From positions 1 through 64,000 of the forward strand of contig JAHDND010000023.1 of assembly GCA_018435665.1 (NCBI GenBank): a DNA stretch of 64,000 bases, in the 5' to 3' direction. Positions within the stretch are counted from its first letter, which is position 1. Every line of letters starts with the position of its first letter. Below are positions 36,402-46,313 of this stretch, one piece after another. The notes beneath the pieces were generated by a model, which worked only from the letters and a program-made list of their open reading frames with translations, searched no databases and was not told the origin of the DNA. Made by a program: the position numbers and the translations under genes. Origin of the DNA: Candidatus Thiosymbion sp. Lineage in GTDB: Bacteria; Pseudomonadota; Gammaproteobacteria; Chromatiales; Chromatiaceae.

Positions 36402-36911
36402 TCAGTAATAAGGCTGGAACCAATACCAGTAATAAGGCGCTTGGAGCGATTGGGGTGAGAGTCTTGGGACCTGGGGCTGGGCAGGCTGGGGGGCCATGGG
36501 CTGGCCAAACTGGTACCAATAAAAGGGCTGACCGGGCGCGTTGCCCGTCAGGGGGTGCTGTGGCTGGTACCAGTAGTAATAATTACCCGTCAGCGGCTGG
36601 AACGGCTGGTACCAGAAGTAATAATTACCCGTCTGGGACGGCAGGGGTTGGTAGCCATAGTGGTTCCCCGTCAGGGGCTGCATCGGCTGGTACCAGTAGT
36701 AGGTAGCGGGGTTCGGCGTCTGGGCGGGAGTACCCCCGGCCGGGGCGCTCCATTGCTCGAAACGGTAAAAGCCAGCGGCGGATGCCGTCAGACTGGTGAG
36801 ACCCAGCATGGCCATCAGGGACAGCGACAGGGGCAAATGGAGGGGCAGCGACAGGGGCAGGTGGAAGGGTGGCGTCAGGGGCAAATGGCAGTGCGGAGCG
36901 TTGCGGTTCAT
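36402..36911 (-). CDS. Secreted Tyr/Trp/Pro-rich repeat protein
   Basis: ATG 36911 has a GAGG ribosome site; a hydrophobic signal (SLMAMLGLTSLTASA) precedes cleavage near AAG. The region before it is itself a repeat (HLPLTPPFHLPLSLP). The mature protein is a string of aromatic repeats of about 14 residues, YYWYQPMQPLTGN, YGYQPLPSQTGN, YFWYQPFQPLTGN, YYWYQPQHPLTGN, FYWYQFGQPM, ending in YYWYWFQPYY. No Cys, few charged residues. No known family was recognised. Low-complexity aromatic secreted proteins may form adhesive or cross-linked material, but that is only a suggestion. Coding is supported by the uninterrupted frame and repeated protein, not merely DNA, pattern. Confidence 0.65.
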   Translation of the reverse strand: MNRNAPHCHLPLTPPFHLPLSLPLHLPLSLSLMAMLGLTSLTASAAGFYRFEQWSAPAGGTPAQTPNPATYYWYQPMQPLTGNHYGYQPLPSQTGNYYFWYQPFQPLTGNYYYWYQPQHPLTGNAPGQPFYWYQFGQPMAPQPAQPQVPRLSPQSLQAPYYWYWFQPYY

Positions 36912-37539: not shown

Positions 37540-38718
<1,179 letters not shown>

Positions 38719-38809: not shown

Positions 38810-38851
38810 CCTTCAACCTCCCCCTTGCACTCACAGGTCGCTAACCCCCCC

Positions 38852-39448
38852 ATGTCTATCCTCGAATTCATCACCGCCATCCTCTCCACCTTTGGCCTCA
38901 TCTTTCTGGCGGAAATTGGCGACAAGAGCCAACTCGTCTGCATGACCCTGGCCGCGCGCCACCGTCACCCCCCGGTGTTGCTCGGGGCCGTGGCCGCCTT
39001 CCTGGTGCTCAATACCCTGGCCGTGGTCTTCGGCGCGGGCCTGGCGCAATGGATTCCGGAGCAGGTGCTGGCCGGGGCGGTGGCCCTCCTCTTCGGGGTC
39101 TTTGGCATCAAGTCCCTGCTCACCAAGGAAGAGGCGGAGGACCCGGAGGGGGAGGTGGTGGAAAAGCCCGGCCATGGCATTTTCGTCACCACCTTCTCGA
39201 TGTTGTTCCTGGCGGAGATGGGCGACAAGACCCAACTGGCCGTGGCGGGTCTGGCCGTGACCTTGCCCCCCGTGGCGGTCTGGCTGGGGGCCACCCTGGC
39301 CCTGATCATCACCTCGGCCCTGGGCGTCTGGCTGGGCGTCACCCTGCTCCGGCGCATCCCCATCCATCGTCTCCATCAGATCAGCGGGGTCTTTTTCCTC
39401 GTCCTGGCCGCCTTCGCCGCGGCCCAGGTCTTCGGCCTTCTTGCATAA
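38852..39448 (+). CDS. TMEM165/GDT1 (UPF0016) family protein, probable Mn2+ exporter
   Basis: Start ATG 38852 (MSILEFITAILSTFGLIFLA) is preferred over an upstream in-frame codon. Two inverted halves each carry the family motif E-x-G-D-K-(S/T)-Q: AEIGDKSQLVCMTLAARH and AEMGDKTQLAVAGLAV. Six to seven membrane helices, 198 aa. Bacterial members (MntX type) export Mn2+ and are usually placed directly behind a yybP-ykoY riboswitch; here the riboswitch is 1.7 kb upstream, with dmeF between. It may be co-transcribed with dmeF (133-base gap). Confidence 0.9.
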   Translation: MSILEFITAILSTFGLIFLAEIGDKSQLVCMTLAARHRHPPVLLGAVAAFLVLNTLAVVFGAGLAQWIPEQVLAGAVALLFGVFGIKSLLTKEEAEDPEGEVVEKPGHGIFVTTFSMLFLAEMGDKTQLAVAGLAVTLPPVAVWLGATLALIITSALGVWLGVTLLRRIPIHRLHQISGVFFLVLAAFAAAQVFGLLA

Positions 39449-39710: not shown

Positions 39711-40475
39711 CTAATCGTCGTCATCCTTTTCGTGGTGGCCTTTGCGACCCTGATGGTCATCTTTTCCCCTACCCTGGCCCTGGCCCCGGATGTCATGTTC
39801 ATCCGCGTTGCGATGACATTCGACGCAGTTCCTGAAATCACGAATCCCCTCCTCGATGTGCTCCCGCCGGATGTTCTCGGGGGTATGCTCGTGACAGCCA
39901 TAACAGGTGTATTGACGATAGTCGCTGCGCTCGTGACAGGTCACGCATTGGACATTGTGGTCGCGGTCTAGCTGGAAATAGGACTCGTGATCGAAGGTCG
40001 CGGGGGTCCAGCGGTCCTGGGTATGGCATTGACCGCAGTTGCCGGCGATTTGACTATGGATCTTGTCAATGGGCGCGCGATGGCAGCCATGGCATTGTTC
40101 GCGATAGCCACTCTGTAGCAGGTCATGGGCGAAGCGCCCCTCCTGGCGAAAACGTTTCACCCCCGCATGGTCACTGTGACAGGCGGTACAGTCGTCCTTG
40201 ACGAGTTGCTGATGGAAGGGTGCCGAGGTCAAAGGCTTGGTGATGGGCTGTCCCGTCGTGGTCAAACGGCCAATGTCCGCGGATTGGTGGCAGACGCTGC
40301 AGCGCTCGGCGCTGGCGCCGGTGAAGGGCGCATGGCAGGCGAAACAGTCCGTTTCGAGTTCCTGGTGGCCGGGGATCAGTTTGCCGGGACCGATCATGAG
40401 CTGGGGATAGGCAAAGGCCAGGATCGCCAGCACGCCCAGGTTGACGGCCAGCACAAGTTTGACGGTGCGGTTCAT
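39711..40475 (-). CDS. Eight-heme c-type cytochrome, membrane-anchored
   Basis: Start ATG 40473-40475 gives MNRTVKLVLAVNLGVLAILA, an uncleaved anchor or signal. Eight CXXCH heme sites follow: CFACH, CSVCH, CTACH, CHGCH, CGQCH, CVTCH, CYGCH and CVECH, with extra His suitable as axial ligands (HQELE, HSDHAG, HDLL). The tail is highly charged (HEKDDDD). The pattern resembles multiheme cytochrome c3/c7-type periplasmic electron carriers. It is the third gene of a tight operon, starting inside the stop of the cytochrome b gene (ATGA), and should receive electrons from it in the periplasm. Confidence 0.9.
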   Translation of the reverse strand: MNRTVKLVLAVNLGVLAILAFAYPQLMIGPGKLIPGHQELETDCFACHAPFTGASAERCSVCHQSADIGRLTTTGQPITKPLTSAPFHQQLVKDDCTACHSDHAGVKRFRQEGRFAHDLLQSGYREQCHGCHRAPIDKIHSQIAGNCGQCHTQDRWTPATFDHESYFQLDRDHNVQCVTCHERSDYRQYTCYGCHEHTPENIRREHIEEGIRDFRNCVECHRNADEHDIRGQGQGRGKDDHQGRKGHHEKDDDD

Positions 40476-41056
40476 TGCCAACCCCAGAACAGGAAGATGC
40501 TGACGATGTGCCCCAGCGACAGGGTGGCGAAGACCATGAAGATGGGAATGTGGACCTTGCGCCATTGCGCCATGGCCTCGAAGGCTACCGCATCCCAAAA
40601 CACGGCCTGCTCCACCGCGGGGCGGGACAAGCCCCGCAACTGGTAGTGTTCACGCTGGGTCTGGATGTGCCGGCGGGCCCGCCCCAGCAACACCTTGCCG
40701 ACCATGCCACTGATGACGTTGATGCTCATGGCCACCGTCGCCAACCAGGGCAGGATGGCGTTGAAGTGGACGCCGGCATGGATCAGGACCAGGAGGGTGC
40801 CGAGCCAGCCACCGAACTCGTGCAGACGCAGGAGCAAGGTCGGGTTGCCGGTCAGCAGAAGCTTGCGCTTGCGCAATGAATAGGTCAGGGAGGCGATGAG
40901 GAGGAGGGTCCCGGGGATACCCAGATAGCGACCGACCCAGACGAGATCGAGGCGATGCAGCAGATAGTCTCCCGCCAGGGTGCCGACCATCAGCAGGGTC
41001 ATGAGCAAGGTGAACGGCAGAATATGCTCACGCCAGAGGGCGGTGGGAAAAGCCAT
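40472..41056 (-). CDS. Membrane cytochrome b-like subunit
   Basis: 194 residues with four to five membrane helices. Histidines sit in helices as expected of heme ligands: LRLHEFGGWLGTLLVLIHAG, VHFN, RKVHIPIFMVFATLSLGHIV. The fold recalls ferric-reductase-like or formate-dehydrogenase-gamma-like di-heme b cytochromes. The central loop (GRARRHIQTQREHYQLRGLS) is basic and would face the cytoplasm. It begins three bases after the reductase stop and overlaps the eight-heme cytochrome gene. It probably carries electrons across the membrane from the flavoprotein to the cytochrome c. Confidence 0.8.
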   Translation of the reverse strand: MAFPTALWREHILPFTLLMTLLMVGTLAGDYLLHRLDLVWVGRYLGIPGTLLLIASLTYSLRKRKLLLTGNPTLLLRLHEFGGWLGTLLVLIHAGVHFNAILPWLATVAMSINVISGMVGKVLLGRARRHIQTQREHYQLRGLSRPAVEQAVFWDAVAFEAMAQWRKVHIPIFMVFATLSLGHIVSIFLFWGWQ

Positions 41057-41059
41057 GGC

Positions 41060-42334
41060 TCAAGCCTCCAGGGTGACGGCGGTCTTGGGGGTACAGACAC
41101 AGAGCAGGCAGGTGCCTGGTTCCGGGTCGTAGTCCGGGGGTTGGCGGTAACTCACCTCCCCGGACGCGATGCGGGTTTGGCACGTCCCGCACCCCCCGGC
41201 GCGACAGCCGGAGGGGATGGCGATGCCATGGGCCTCGGCCAGATCGAGCAGGCTGCCCGCGTCCGGCCGCCAGGTCAGTTGCTGGCCGGACCTGGCGTAG
41301 GTGACTAGGATCTCGGGGGCGCTGGCCAGCCCCTTGGCAACCGGCTCCGGACTCGGGGCGGGTTGGCGGCGCGGGATCGAGGCCGGACCAAAGGCCTCGA
41401 AGTGGATGCGCGCCGGGGGCACGCCCCATTCCTCCAGGGCCGGCACCAGGGTTTCCAACAGCGGGGTGGGGCCGCAGAGGAAAAAGTGATAGGGCTTCAG
41501 GTTCAGCTCCAGGCGCAGGCAGGTGATATCGACGCGCCCCGCGTGGTGGAAATCCCGCCCGACTTGATCCGTGGCCAAGGGGTTACTGAAGCACAAGCGC
41601 AGTTTAAATTGGGGATGGGTGTCGGCCAGGGCGCGGAGGTGCTCCGTCATGATCGCCTCGTGGCTGTTGCGCACGCCGTAAAACAGCCAGATCTCGCGCC
41701 CCGGCTGCTGGGTGAGGCCCCAGTTGAGCATGCTGAGCAGGGGGGTGATGCCGATGCCGCCGGCAATCAACACCACCGGATCCTCGCCGCTGTCCAGGTA
41801 AAAGTGCCCGGCCGGGGCCCGCGCCAGCAGCAGGCTGCCCTCTTGGACCTGATCGTGGAAGTGATTCGAGACGCGCCCGGGGGGACGGTCGGCGCCGGCT
41901 GAGGCCGAGATGCGCTTGATGGAAACCCGGTAATGGTCCGGGCGGGGGGCATCCGAGAGGGAGTAACAGCGGACGAGGGGCTCCACGCCGCCCGCGCCGT
42001 CGGGGATCTCCAGGCGAAAGGTGAGGAACTGACCGGGCCGGAAGCGGGACAAGGGCTGCCCATCCTCGGGTTCGAGGTAGAAGGAGCAGATCGACCCCGC
42101 CGCATCCTCGATGACCTTGCGGCTGACCAGGAAGGGCCGGTAATCCGTCCAGGAGCCCTGGCCAGGTACCCCCTCGGGGTGCGATGCCAGGGGGGCCGGG
42201 GGCGCGCTTCCAGTGATGTTGGCCTTGAGGGCCAGGTAGTTCTGCCAGTGTCGCCCAAAGGAAATCCCCAGGAAGATCGCCAGTTGGAGGCTGATGCCCA
42301 GCAGGATCCAGAAAAGCAGGCTGAGAGAAGTCAT
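41060..42334 (-). CDS. Membrane-bound FAD/NAD(P)H oxidoreductase with 2Fe-2S ferredoxin domain
   Basis: An N-terminal membrane helix (LLFWILLGISLQLAIFLGIS) is followed by an FAD-binding barrel (FRPGQFLTFRLEIP, RCYSLSDAPRPDHYRVSIKR), an NAD(P)H-binding domain (VVLIAGGIGITPLLSMLNWG, FFLCGPTPLLETL) and a plant-type 2Fe-2S domain (SGCRAGGCGTCQ, with a fourth Cys in CLLC). The order equals that of phthalate-dioxygenase- or flavohemoglobin-type reductases fused to ferredoxin. As first gene of the operon it would oxidise cytosolic NAD(P)H and feed the cytochrome b subunit. The physiological acceptor is unknown. Confidence 0.9.
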   Translation of the reverse strand: MTSLSLLFWILLGISLQLAIFLGISFGRHWQNYLALKANITGSAPPAPLASHPEGVPGQGSWTDYRPFLVSRKVIEDAAGSICSFYLEPEDGQPLSRFRPGQFLTFRLEIPDGAGGVEPLVRCYSLSDAPRPDHYRVSIKRISASAGADRPPGRVSNHFHDQVQEGSLLLARAPAGHFYLDSGEDPVVLIAGGIGITPLLSMLNWGLTQQPGREIWLFYGVRNSHEAIMTEHLRALADTHPQFKLRLCFSNPLATDQVGRDFHHAGRVDITCLRLELNLKPYHFFLCGPTPLLETLVPALEEWGVPPARIHFEAFGPASIPRRQPAPSPEPVAKGLASAPEILVTYARSGQQLTWRPDAGSLLDLAEAHGIAIPSGCRAGGCGTCQTRIASGEVSYRQPPDYDPEPGTCLLCVCTPKTAVTLEA

Positions 42335-42432: not shown

Positions 42433-44757
42433 TTAAGCGCTTGCCAACCCTGGCGGGGCCGAAAACTGAGACGCGATGGGTATAAATCCTGGGTCCCGGC
42501 CGGGGCAGGGGCGGGGAGGCGTTTTTCCTGACGAGCCAGGGAGGAATTTTAAGTCAATGACGTGGTGGCAGGCGCGGGGCGTCGGCGGCGTCGCTCGCCT
42601 CATACCACAGCAGATGCTCCAGCAGTTCAGTGGTGCGGGCCACCGAGGCGTGCAGTTGCAGAGGATGGCGGGGACCTGGCCCACCTCCAGGGTGTTGCGC
42701 ACTTCCCGCGCGGCCAGTTGGGCATTGCCGAGGATGCCCGCCAGCAGATCCTGAAACAGCCGGTCGCTCACCAGGTCGTCGGGGATCAGGAGCAACCGGG
42801 CCTCGGCGCTCAGGTTGTCCTGGAACTGCCGGCGGGCCACCTCCGCCGCCTTGCGATCACTCAGGTCGTTGCCGATCAGGACATAGCCGAGATGGATGGC
42901 GTGACCCGACACCACCGGATCGAGGCGCAGCAGATAGGGGCGTTTCTCGTCGTTGGGCAGGCGGAGGTCGACCTCGCCCCGCCAGGGGGCGCGTTCCTCC
43001 AGGGCGCCCCTGACTCCCGCGCTGGCCTCGGCCTGATCGTCTAGGAGTGGCAGCAGGTCCGCCAGGTGGGTCGGCCGCGGGCCCGGGGGCAATAAGGCGG
43101 CAAAGGCCTGGTTCTGCAGTATGATCCGTTGGCCGGCATCGGCGACGACCAGGGGGTGTTCGGTCAGGGACAGGCGGGCGCTGAACTCCTTGACCTGATG
43201 CTGGGTGATGAGCAGGCGGATGGAGCGGATTTCCTGCATGACATCGGCCACGGCATGGCCGATCTGCCGGGCGGTGGTCAGGTCCTGGTGGGTCCAGGGA
43301 TCGGCGGTCCCCTTGACCACCTCCTGCCAGCGGGCGAAGGACAGGCGGGGGGAGATGTCCCGGGGGTCGGCCCCCTTGACGCTCTCATGGGGATTGCCGC
43401 CCCAGGTCAGGGTGCGGACCCGTTCCGGCCGGAACCAGAGCAAGTATTCCCCGGGGGTGAAGCAGAGGGGGACCGCCAGCACCCCGGCCACCGCCGGCAG
43501 CAGGTCGGCGAACCGGGGTTCCTGCTGGGCCAGGGCATGGGTGGCGTAGAGACTCCTGCCGGCCTGACGATCGAGCCAGGTCCCGAGGGTGCGCAGTTCG
43601 GGTACATCAGGGACCTCCCCGGCGGTGAGGACCCCTTCATCGCGCACCAGCGCCAGACCGCTGGCCCGCAGGGCCTTCAGCACGTCCTGGGGCTGATCGA
43701 AAAGGGCCCGTTCCCAGGCCCCCTCGGTGGAGACGGCCCTGATCATGCGCTCACCCAGGAGGCGCACGGCCAGTTCCGCCTGGGACTGGGCAAAGCCCTC
43801 CAGGGCCGTGATGCGGGTGGCGATGGCCTCGGCCAGGAGGGCGCAGACGACGCGGATCGGGTACTGCACCAGGCGGGGGCTGTCGTGGTGGCAGAGGACC
43901 AGGCCCCACAGCCGGCCATTGACCATCAGGGAGGTGCTCAGGGACGCCCGCACCCCCATGTTGCGCAGGTATTGGATGTGAATGGGGGACATGCCGCGCA
44001 GGCAGCACAGGGACATGTCCAGGGGGGTTGATTGGGAGGGCGCCAGGGCCGGCTCCAGGGGCACGGGGCGGTCGTCCACGTCCCGCAGGAAGCGGAGGCG
44101 ACTGCGCTCGTAGAGGCGACGGGCGATCTGGGGGATGTCCGCGGCCGGGTAGCGGTTGCCGAGATAGGGGGCATGCCCCGGCTGGCGGGCCTCGGCGATG
44201 ACCGTCCCATGGCCCTCCTCGTCGAACTGGTAGACCATGACCCGGTCATAACCGGCCAGGTCCTTGAAGATCCGGACCGTCGCATCCCCCAGGGCGGTGA
44301 GGGACAGGGCCCGGGATATCGCCTGGAGGGCGTCCTGGACGAAGGCCCGCAGGTCGGGGGAGGGGGTGGCCAGTTCCAGTTCGACGATCAGCCCCCCGCC
44401 GGGGGGGCGATGGAGGGAGCCATCGAGGGCCACGTCCAGGCTGGCGACCTCGCAGCGCACGGCGACGGGCAAGGTGTCCAGGGGTTCCGCCAGCCGCGAG
44501 CGGACCCGGGCGGCCAGGTTGCCGCCCAAGGCCGACAGGGGCAGACCGAGGATGGGTCCCCACAGTCGGAGAAAGGCCGCGGCATTGGCGCTGGCCTGGA
44601 CGATGACCAGTTCCGGTTCCGTGACCACCAGCAGGGCGCCATGGGGCTGGATGGAACCGGCCAGGTGGATCTGTTCCCGCTCGCAATTGGTCAGGTCGGC
44701 CTCGCCGAAGCGGGGCGGAACCGCCGGAAGGAGCGGTTCGCAGCGGGGCAGGGTCAT
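42433..44757 (-). CDS. bphP: Bacteriophytochrome (PAS-GAF-PHY-PAS), C-terminal frameshift
   Basis: From ATG 44757: PAS with biliverdin-binding Cys 25 (LTNCEREQIHLAGSIQPHG), GAF with the PAADIPQIAR motif (Asp 207), His 260 and His 290, and PHY with WGGNPHES and PRLSFARW tongue motifs. A second PAS follows (about 530-640); there is no kinase. All chromophore residues are intact. Near 42655-42663 the frame appears shifted by one base: after GQVPAIL the other frame gives LHASVARTTELLEHLLWYEA and stops at 42554-42556, which fits a helical output end, whereas the frame as written runs on as Cys/Pro-rich sequence to 42433. The gene follows ppsR, so it is expected to modulate that repressor by far-red light. 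Confidence 0.9.
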   Translation of the reverse strand: MTLPRCEPLLPAVPPRFGEADLTNCEREQIHLAGSIQPHGALLVVTEPELVIVQASANAAAFLRLWGPILGLPLSALGGNLAARVRSRLAEPLDTLPVAVRCEVASLDVALDGSLHRPPGGGLIVELELATPSPDLRAFVQDALQAISRALSLTALGDATVRIFKDLAGYDRVMVYQFDEEGHGTVIAEARQPGHAPYLGNRYPAADIPQIARRLYERSRLRFLRDVDDRPVPLEPALAPSQSTPLDMSLCCLRGMSPIHIQYLRNMGVRASLSTSLMVNGRLWGLVLCHHDSPRLVQYPIRVVCALLAEAIATRITALEGFAQSQAELAVRLLGERMIRAVSTEGAWERALFDQPQDVLKALRASGLALVRDEGVLTAGEVPDVPELRTLGTWLDRQAGRSLYATHALAQQEPRFADLLPAVAGVLAVPLCFTPGEYLLWFRPERVRTLTWGGNPHESVKGADPRDISPRLSFARWQEVVKGTADPWTHQDLTTARQIGHAVADVMQEIRSIRLLITQHQVKEFSARLSLTEHPLVVADAGQRIILQNQAFAALLPPGPRPTHLADLLPLLDDQAEASAGVRGALEERAPWRGEVDLRLPNDEKRPYLLRLDPVVSGHAIHLGYVLIGNDLSDRKAAEVARRQFQDNLSAEARLLLIPDDLVSDRLFQDLLAGILGNAQLAAREVRNTLEVGQVPAILCNCTPRWPAPLNCWSICCGMRRATPPTPRACHHVIDLKFLPGSSGKTPPRPCPGRDPGFIPIASQFSAPPGLASA
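42445..42487. repeat. Single arm of the dispersed intergenic repeat
   Basis: CCAACCCTGGCGGGGCCGAA, AACTGAGACGCGATGGGTAT and AAA match the arm consensus. The copy lies between the end of bphP and the start of the reductase operon, inside the out-of-frame tail of the phytochrome reading frame. Confidence 0.6.
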
Positions 44758-44835
44758 GGCGGATCGCAACGGGGCGGGGTCATCGCGGTTCGTGGGGGGG
44801 CAGGGTCATGGCAGTTCGCGGTGGGGCAGGGTCAT
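44732..44835 (-). repeat. Four tandem 26-bp repeats at the ppsR/bphP junction
   Basis: On the minus strand ATGACCCTGCCCC recurs at 44835, 44809, 44783 and 44757 with exact 26-base spacing. The first ATG overlaps the ppsR stop (ATGA). Each of the first three copies encodes nine codons (MTLPHRELP, MTLPPHEPR, MTPPRCDPP) and ends in TGA overlapping the next copy's ATG. The fourth ATG opens bphP. Confidence 0.9.
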
Positions 44836-46199
44836 GGCTGGGCCCCGGCCTTCTCGTCGCCCTCGATGCCATAACGGCCGAACTTGACGTAGAGGCTCTG
44901 GCGACTGATGCCGAGGAGTTCGGCGGCGACGGTCCGGTTCCCCCCGGCGAGGTCCAACGCGGCCTCGATGTAGTGACGTTCGATGACCTCCGTCGCCTCG
45001 TCGACCAGGCGCCGCAGGCTGGTCTTGCCCACCTGCTTGGACAGGATATCGAGCCAATGCCCCGAGGCGCTGGCCCGGTCCTCCGTGGACAGGCGCCGGT
45101 CGATGTTGCGGGTGCAGACGCCAATGTGACTGGGGTTGGTCGGCGCGTTGCCGACGGCGGAGATCTCGACCTCGATCTCGGAGCCCAGTTCGCCGTAGAG
45201 CTTGGTGGAGAAGAGACGCACGGTGCCGAGCCGCCGGACGTTGGCCATGAGCACCGTGAGATCGGCGCCCGGGCGTCCGAGCCAGCGGCCGAGGGGTTTG
45301 CCGAGGATCGAGGTCTCGGAGCCCATCTGCACCATGTCGAGGAAGGCGCGATTGGCCCGGAGGATGACGCCCTGGTGGTCGATGATGGCGAAGGCATCGG
45401 GGCTGCGCTCGACCAGATGATCGAGGGCGGGCTCGCTCCGGGTCGGATAGGCATGCACCAGCCCTTCCGTCGGGGCGAATTGGATGAGGAAGACCGGGTT
45501 GCCCCGGGCCGCCATGAGGGAGGCGCGGGCGAACCAGGGTTGTCGCGCCTCGCCGACCCTTACCAGAAGCGCGGGGGCACCGCCCCGTTCCTTGACCTCA
45601 TGCAGCATGCCGAGGAAGGCGTCCCGATCCTCCGCGCGGAGGCTGTCCAGCAGACGGCGGGCGTGGTTGGCCTTCGGCGGGCCGGTACTCAGGCCGAAGG
45701 CTTGCACCGCCATGGGGTTGGCCTCCAGGACGCCCATATCCCGGGCATCCAACAACAGGATGGCCTCGCTGGAGGCATTGACCAGGAGTCGATAGCGGGT
45801 CTCGATCTCGCGCAGCTTCAGATAATCCTGGGTCATCGCCTGCTGCGTCTCGATCAGTCGGTTCTGGATCCCGGTGATCGCTTGCAGGCTCTTGCCCACC
45901 GCGACGATATCCTGTCGGCCCACCAGGCGGAGGGCGGTGTACTCCACCGGGACCTCACGGCCACTGGGCAACCGTTGGACGAGTTGACGAAAGGGGGACA
46001 GGCCGCAGGCCTGGACCTCGCCGAGGATGCGCCGCAGGAGGAACCCATCCCGTTCCGCCACGGTCGTCGCCCAGGGCAGGCCGATCCAGCCCGTCGCCGC
46101 TTCTTCCGCGAAGACCCCCGCCAGGGTGGCATTCCGGATGACGCCCTCCTGGTCCAGGGTGAGCATGATGTCTGGGGCAGCAAGCGGAGGAACGATCAT
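44832..46199 (-). CDS. ppsR: Transcriptional regulator PpsR/CrtJ
   Basis: 455 residues from ATG 46199 (a GTG nine bases earlier is possible). PAS-type domains: an N-terminal one (DIMLTLDQEGVIRNATLAGV), a second (YRLLVNASSEAILLLDARDM), a third (DHLVERSPDAFAIIDHQGVI). The C-terminus is a Fis-type helix-turn-helix, NRTVAAELLGISRQSLYVKF, with the ISRQSLYVK wording characteristic of PpsR. PpsR represses bacteriochlorophyll, carotenoid and light-harvesting genes under aerobic conditions. Cys occurs only in CGLSPF and GVCTRN; the HTH lacks the Cys used for redox sensing in the Rhodobacter protein. Its presence is the main evidence for a phototrophic host. It is coupled to bphP through a tandem repeat. 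Confidence 0.92.
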   Translation of the reverse strand: MIVPPLAAPDIMLTLDQEGVIRNATLAGVFAEEAATGWIGLPWATTVAERDGFLLRRILGEVQACGLSPFRQLVQRLPSGREVPVEYTALRLVGRQDIVAVGKSLQAITGIQNRLIETQQAMTQDYLKLREIETRYRLLVNASSEAILLLDARDMGVLEANPMAVQAFGLSTGPPKANHARRLLDSLRAEDRDAFLGMLHEVKERGGAPALLVRVGEARQPWFARASLMAARGNPVFLIQFAPTEGLVHAYPTRSEPALDHLVERSPDAFAIIDHQGVILRANRAFLDMVQMGSETSILGKPLGRWLGRPGADLTVLMANVRRLGTVRLFSTKLYGELGSEIEVEISAVGNAPTNPSHIGVCTRNIDRRLSTEDRASASGHWLDILSKQVGKTSLRRLVDEATEVIERHYIEAALDLAGGNRTVAAELLGISRQSLYVKFGRYGIEGDEKAGAQP

Positions 46200-46313
46200 G
46201 AGCACCACACCCTGGTGAGCTACCGGTTCGGCAAGGGTTGGCCTATGTTACCTAATTCTTGGAGGATGCGTACTTTATCCCCACATTGCCTCGCGGTTTT
46301 CGGGGGCGCCAGT

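Follow-up and report, generated by a model that had tools for sequence, protein, structure and literature searches.

What could three adjoining genes for an NAD(P)H flavoprotein, a membrane cytochrome b and an octaheme cytochrome c do in Candidatus Thiosymbion, and where would their electrons go? The genes, here called F, B and C, lie in a 64,000-nucleotide stretch of DNA that was analyzed as a whole and is referred to below as the window. A sequence-only reading had described them as a jointly expressed electron conduit with the cofactor order FAD, 2Fe-2S, b-hemes and eight c-hemes. When we re-read the window, the limits given for the trio (39711–42334) proved exact to the base, as did the spacing of 3 bases between F and B and the 4-base overlap of the B stop with the C start. 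This spacing bears out a layout for co-transcription, and the motifs and domains found bear out the cofactor order. The features are listed in Table 1. The trio region yielded no sigma-70-like promoter site, and its frequency of terminator-like sites did not exceed that of shuffled sequences.

Table 1. Features of the trio and its surroundings, in window positions or protein residues
Feature	Position	Strand	Length	Basis or remark
F, NAD(P)H reductase subunit	42334..41060	minus	424 aa	PF00175, PF00111
F, NAD-binding domain	residues 189-294			PF00175, E 2.7e-15
F, plant-type 2Fe-2S domain, C-terminal	residues 348-417			PF00111, E 1.4e-13
B, five-helix membrane cytochrome b (putative)	41056..40472	minus	194 aa	alignments, AlphaFold2 model
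C, periplasmic octaheme c-type cytochrome (predicted)	40475..39711	minus	254 aa	eight CXXCH; PF14522, PF14537, PF02085
GDT1-family divalent cation/proton antiporter	38825..39448	plus, convergent		PF01169, E 1.3e-45
CDF cation efflux transporter, DmeF type (Co/Ni)	37540..38718	plus, convergent		NF033827 over cut-off, E 3.6e-106
Bacteriophytochrome (PAS-GAF-PHY-PAS)	42433..44769	minus		PF08446, PF01590, PF00360; 98 bp upstream of F
Photosynthesis repressor PpsR/CrtJ	44832..46208	minus		TIGR02040 over cut-off, E 1.4e-119; upstream
Secreted-looking ORF	36402-36911			repeated YWYQP/NYYYWYQP motifs

Features of the three proteins

The F protein consists of one N-terminal transmembrane (TM) helix followed by an FAD domain, the NAD-binding domain and the 2Fe-2S domain. 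The window protein carries the flavin motif RxYSL and cysteines arranged as CX4CX2C...C. Among 91 F relatives, the RxYSL-type motif was kept in 88, the nucleotide motif GG(I/V)GxTP in 84, the four-cysteine cluster motif in 90 and a hydrophobic N-terminal segment in 85. Among solved structures, F comes closest to the reductase domains of flavohemoproteins (E 1e-67), then to NqrF and the phthalate and benzoate dioxygenase reductases. F passed none of the NCBIfam equivalog cut-offs; the NqrF model, for example, scored 76 with a cut-off of 295. Relatives of F also occur without B or C. In locus L120 the relative is fused to another domain, and in L119 it lies directly upstream of a different multiheme cytochrome, without B. 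The latter arrangement suggests that F-type reductases may serve several cytochrome types.

B was less easily classified. No Pfam family exceeded its cut-off (the best was DUF4405, E 0.094), no NCBIfam model recognized the protein, no solved structure was related to it by sequence, and a search of a plasmid collection with B gave no match. Nevertheless, four histidines were invariant in 66 aligned sequences with identities down to 23%, those at the lower end being encoded beside multiheme c genes with at least 12 CXXCH motifs. These form two HX13H pairs, His79/His93 on TM3 and His169/His183 on TM5, and all 91 B proteins kept HX13H twice, WX3HX13H and SGXXG. In the AlphaFold2 model of B (mean pLDDT 81.7), five long helices are seen, and SGXXG lies on the fourth. 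From this conservation, the four histidines are the probable ligands of two b hemes, so the b-hemes of the sequence-only reading are well founded, though no family model shows them.

Structure searches with the B model pointed to no clear parent fold, and this lack of a match is given no weight here. Foldseek returned no match below E 0.001, and in the VIA fold comparison SpNOX (Z 5.7), cytochrome b561 (Z 5.5) and NOX5 (Z about 5) all stood amid unrelated helical bundles. PF01794 (Ferric_reduct) did not match B at E 0.1, but it does match an FRE protein that adjoins the trio in L070. A study of Accumulibacter from 2006 reportedly described a novel cytochrome b/b6-NAD(P)-flavin protein; that protein may instead correspond to a ferric-reductase-like neighbour with six TM helices that some loci have. 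Distant B homologues of 302–322 aa were found in L012, L013 and L015 beside multiheme c genes with at least 12 CXXCH motifs; they may belong to larger conduits, of PCC3 type or otherwise, in related genomes.

The eight CXXCH motifs of the window C protein recurred in 85 of 86 C relatives, and its family matches were confined to the c3/c7 class. Nine further histidines were invariant among 68 aligned sequences, which makes bis-His ligation of all eight hemes feasible. No extra catalytic domain was found in C. Octaheme enzymes such as octaheme tetrathionate reductase and hydroxylamine oxidoreductase belong to recognizable families and have one heme that lacks a distal His, and C showed neither feature. 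The lack of a catalytic domain, together with enough histidines for eight bis-His hemes, indicates a carrier rather than an enzyme. An AlphaFold2 model of C was discarded on account of its mean pLDDT of 55.7. The N-terminus was hydrophobic in all 81 C proteins examined, and inspection by eye of that of the window protein revealed no clear cleavage site, from which an uncleaved N-terminal anchor is predicted.

At the other end, the window protein has a charged tail ending in DDDD (39711–39730). Following a variable charged linker, octaheme C proteins ended in Asp in 78 of 81 cases, in DD in 64 and in DDD in 46. A small secreted protein family encoded near F in 16 loci has the same ending, e.g., REHDDD. 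Outside the C and small secreted family clusters, no ORF of at least 80 aa ending in DDD was found in the fetched loci. We also looked for a second gene with a DDDD terminus in this genome; the sole pattern match did not terminate any credible gene and was rejected. The acidic tail could possibly serve in metal binding, docking or protection from proteases.

Distribution and genomic neighbourhood of the trio

A scan of 84,980 species genomes yielded 310 stretches with a B relative, of which the best 80 were fetched. All 80 shared the gene order F, B, C, with the genes on one strand; in one of them the contig ended before C. As these loci were chosen as best matches, the sample is biased to one clade. 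A further seven loci, spread over six genomes from the same family or class, also had the trio. In an independent sample of 276 gammaproteobacterial genomes, this genome included, strong B matches were seen in six. The same six had C matches, one of them cut by a contig end, with B and C adjacent, and a seventh genome had a C fragment of 82 residues. F adjoined B–C in five of the six genomes, being partial in one, and genome G216 had B–C without F. The co-occurrence that the sequence-only reading had proposed to check was thus seen both in the best 80 of 310 loci and in the 276-genome sample. Separate distribution of the genes, which it had named as grounds for refutation, was not seen for B and C; it applies in part to F, which has relatives elsewhere and is missing beside B–C in G216. 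B and C are therefore constant neighbours with F as their usual, not exclusive, partner, and F-B-C is a real, conserved electron-transfer operon rather than a chance arrangement.

The hosts of the trio include scores of sulfur-, iron- and nitrogen-cycling bacteria. Among them are iron-cycling Gallionella, Sideroxydans and Rhodoferax, and heterotrophs such as Rhodoferax, Aromatoleum and Zoogloea. In a tree of F and B combined, the window and a same-genus relative fell inside a large, mainly betaproteobacterial clade (100/100), whereas other members of the window's family grouped with other gammaproteobacteria in a separate clade (100/100). This placement indicates that Candidatus Thiosymbion probably acquired the F-B-C cassette by lateral transfer.

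Upstream of F, the window has genes for a bacteriophytochrome and PpsR, a known pairing in the light control of photosynthesis genes. Over its final ~100 residues, the bacteriophytochrome ORF appears to be degenerate or to carry a frameshift. In the same-genus relative (L017), however, a two-component system takes the place of this pair, and a comparison of the window with the best 80 of 310 loci showed no shared gene besides the trio. On these two results we rejected a conserved link to photosynthesis through PpsR and bacteriophytochrome. Downstream, the DmeF-type transporter of the window has a long His/Asp repeat loop.

Other neighbours did recur. In 26 of the 67 loci with enough sequence, C was followed, mostly directly, by a CDF exporter gene of the same strand; the nearest NCBIfam models were MntE and FieF, both below cut-off. 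L133, which belongs to the separate gammaproteobacterial clade, likewise has a CDF gene directly after C. In about 20 of the 80 loci, the fetched flanks included genes for SHP (sphaeroides heme protein) and DHC (diheme cytochrome c), often with two-component systems and PepSY proteins; DUF1924 was equated with SHP by its match to 1dw0. SHP (PF09086) was enriched in genomes with the trio, being present in 4 of 5 as compared with 44 of 270 (p 0.004) and, in a second comparison, in 6 of 7 as compared with 9 of 31 (p 0.01), kinship being ignored in both. In this genome SHP and DHC are encoded on another contig (C62) and not in the trio operon; a response regulator close to them shares 72% identity with one that lies near the trio at another locus. 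In L132 and L128, B–C or F-B-C is flanked by genes for PepSY and a histidine kinase in divergent orientation, and in L132 an EF-hand-like secreted protein is encoded downstream of C. CzcD has been described beside SHP operons, and a NO dioxygenase activity of SHP has been cited (Meyer et al., 2010, PMC2909971). The CDF and SHP/DHC associations suggest, short of proof, that the trio may act in the periplasm under cation or oxygen/NO stress. They vary by lineage.

The sequence-only reading had considered a periplasmic or an external acceptor. No outer-membrane porin was found among the annotated recurrent neighbours of the 80 loci or beside the trio in the window, and no extracellular cytochrome recurred in the flanks. 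An external acceptor is thus not supported, and the lack of a recurrent porin makes a periplasmic one likelier, though a porin may be encoded at some other place in the genome.

Likeness to known systems

A literature search found no report on the function of an F-B-C trio, and the earlier statement that the set is not a characterized complex holds. The trio is not wholly unseen, since B-like proteins appear in He et al. (2017, PMC5566968). For the inner-membrane proteins of PCC3 and PCC4 that study gives five TM helices, an HX13H on each of TM3 and TM5, and SGXXG on TM4; for a further group, from multiheme cytochrome clusters that are mostly porin-less, it gives five helices and two HX13H motifs. 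This class is compared with ferric reductase and NADPH oxidase, and its genes lie beside those of periplasmic multiheme cytochromes, often with another redox gene. B agrees with that description in its five predicted helices, in HX13H on helices 3 and 5, in SGXXG on helix 4 and in the adjoining multiheme gene, C being next to B in all uncut loci. No function is named there for the porin-less group, and the sections consulted do not mention the F-B-C trio.

The trio resembles the FRD superfamily (NOX, ferric reductase and two-component systems of the MsrQ type) in its apparent path from NAD(P)H through FAD and two b hemes, held by HX13H pairs, to the far side of the membrane. Two such pairs on two TM helices are present in all 91 B proteins, with heme binding putative. 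It differs in having separate subunits, an extra 2Fe-2S domain and an octaheme c as the first periplasmic carrier, and in that B has five helices instead of six and no PF01794 match. F on its own has the architecture of FNR-ferredoxin reductases of the flavohemoprotein/PaaE/Hcr kind, with FAD, NAD and C-terminal 2Fe-2S domains as in PaaE and Hcr, but is membrane-anchored and partnered by a membrane cytochrome b. Na+-NQR and RNF are set apart by the C-terminal position of the 2Fe-2S domain in F and by the absence of any other Nqr-like gene adjacent to it, and porin-cytochrome conduits (Mtr/Pio/PCC) by the lack of a porin gene in the trio cluster.

The SHP operon, which combines SHP, DHC and a membrane cytochrome b, shares with the trio, on the proposed reading, a membrane diheme cytochrome b feeding periplasmic c hemes, and its reported links to CzcD (CDF) and to QseC-like and other sensor kinases and response regulators (Meyer et al., 2010, PMC2909971) have their counterparts here. 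SHP also co-occurs with the trio. The cytochromes of the SHP operon are different ones, however, its proposed donor is quinol, and it lacks both an NAD(P)H flavoprotein and an octaheme cytochrome (PMC2909971). Judged by motifs and domains, the trio is a variant of NOX/ferric-reductase-like transmembrane electron transfer, with B in a class already noticed in the literature.

Candidate electron path and competing readings

We consider it reasonably likely that F-B-C is a three-subunit inner-membrane enzyme that exports electrons from NAD(P)H to a periplasmic octaheme cytochrome. Held to the membrane by its N-terminal helix, F would take hydride from NADH or NADPH and pass single electrons from FAD through the 2Fe-2S cluster to B. 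Two stacked b hemes, inner then outer, would carry them across the membrane to C, which, anchored on the periplasmic face, would collect them in its eight bis-His c hemes and hand them to a soluble periplasmic partner. NAD(P)H to FAD to 2Fe-2S to b heme to b heme to eight c hemes would be the simplest path. So arranged, the trio would amount to a split NADPH oxidase or ferric reductase in which a c-type heme relay replaces the direct reduction of O2 or Fe(III). What was observed is the gene set with its order, motifs, conservation and co-distribution; cofactor binding, complex formation, direction and acceptor are inferred from these. By general principles, outward transfer should be favoured on two counts: the usual acceptors in the periplasm are less reducing than NAD(P)H, and an inside-negative membrane potential also helps electrons to leave.

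The main competitor would connect B to the quinone pool, with C exchanging electrons with periplasmic donors or acceptors and F providing a side entry from NAD(P)H to quinones. Quinone exchange has been suggested for five-TM HX13H inner-membrane proteins (He et al., 2017, PMC5566968). In G216, which has B–C without F, another donor such as quinol is possible, and the distant B homologues beside genes with at least 12 CXXCH motifs have no F within the fetched stretch. Nearly every genome with B has F adjoining it in the unchanged order, however, and F has an electron-transfer domain of its own, of a kind that feeds a heme or protein partner. We regard this alternative as unlikely.

Less probable still are two further readings. 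Electrons might run inward, C taking them from periplasmic carriers of sulfur, iron or photosynthetic metabolism and F making NAD(P)H, driven by light or the proton-motive force. Hosts that oxidize sulfur or iron would need such reductant, and in the window the trio adjoins PpsR and bacteriophytochrome. That neighbourhood is, however, absent even in the same-genus relative, many hosts are heterotrophic, and inward electrons would work against the membrane potential. Common periplasmic donors are, moreover, too weak for NAD+. We judge it similarly improbable that the trio forms the inner section of a pathway for extracellular electron transfer, with minerals or electrodes at its end. Its iron-cycling hosts and multiheme periplasmic cytochrome are in keeping with such a route, but neither a porin nor an extracellular cytochrome recurs in its flanks, and He et al. 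(2017, PMC5566968) argued likewise for porin-less clusters.

For outward transfer from NAD(P)H, the most likely acceptor would be a periplasmic metal species or the oxygen/NO-binding heme system of SHP/DHC. A more specific version, which we put forward only tentatively and would not ourselves bet on, gives the trio one dedicated task, to counter divalent metal or oxygen/NO stress as an NAD(P)H-driven redox system of the periplasm. The octaheme cytochrome would pass electrons to SHP or to metal ions in the periplasm, under the control of two-component systems that sense cations or the envelope. The trio would work together with a cation exporter from its own operon, and the acidic end of C, conserved and often HDDD, would act as a docking tag for metals or partners.

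Taken together, the trio is a widespread candidate for a direct exit of electrons from NAD(P)H to the periplasm that would bypass the quinone pool, in bacteria that drive the cycling of sulfur, iron, nitrogen and phosphorus. If this is true, it may also provide a possible function for membrane cytochromes b that have been noticed but left unassigned.
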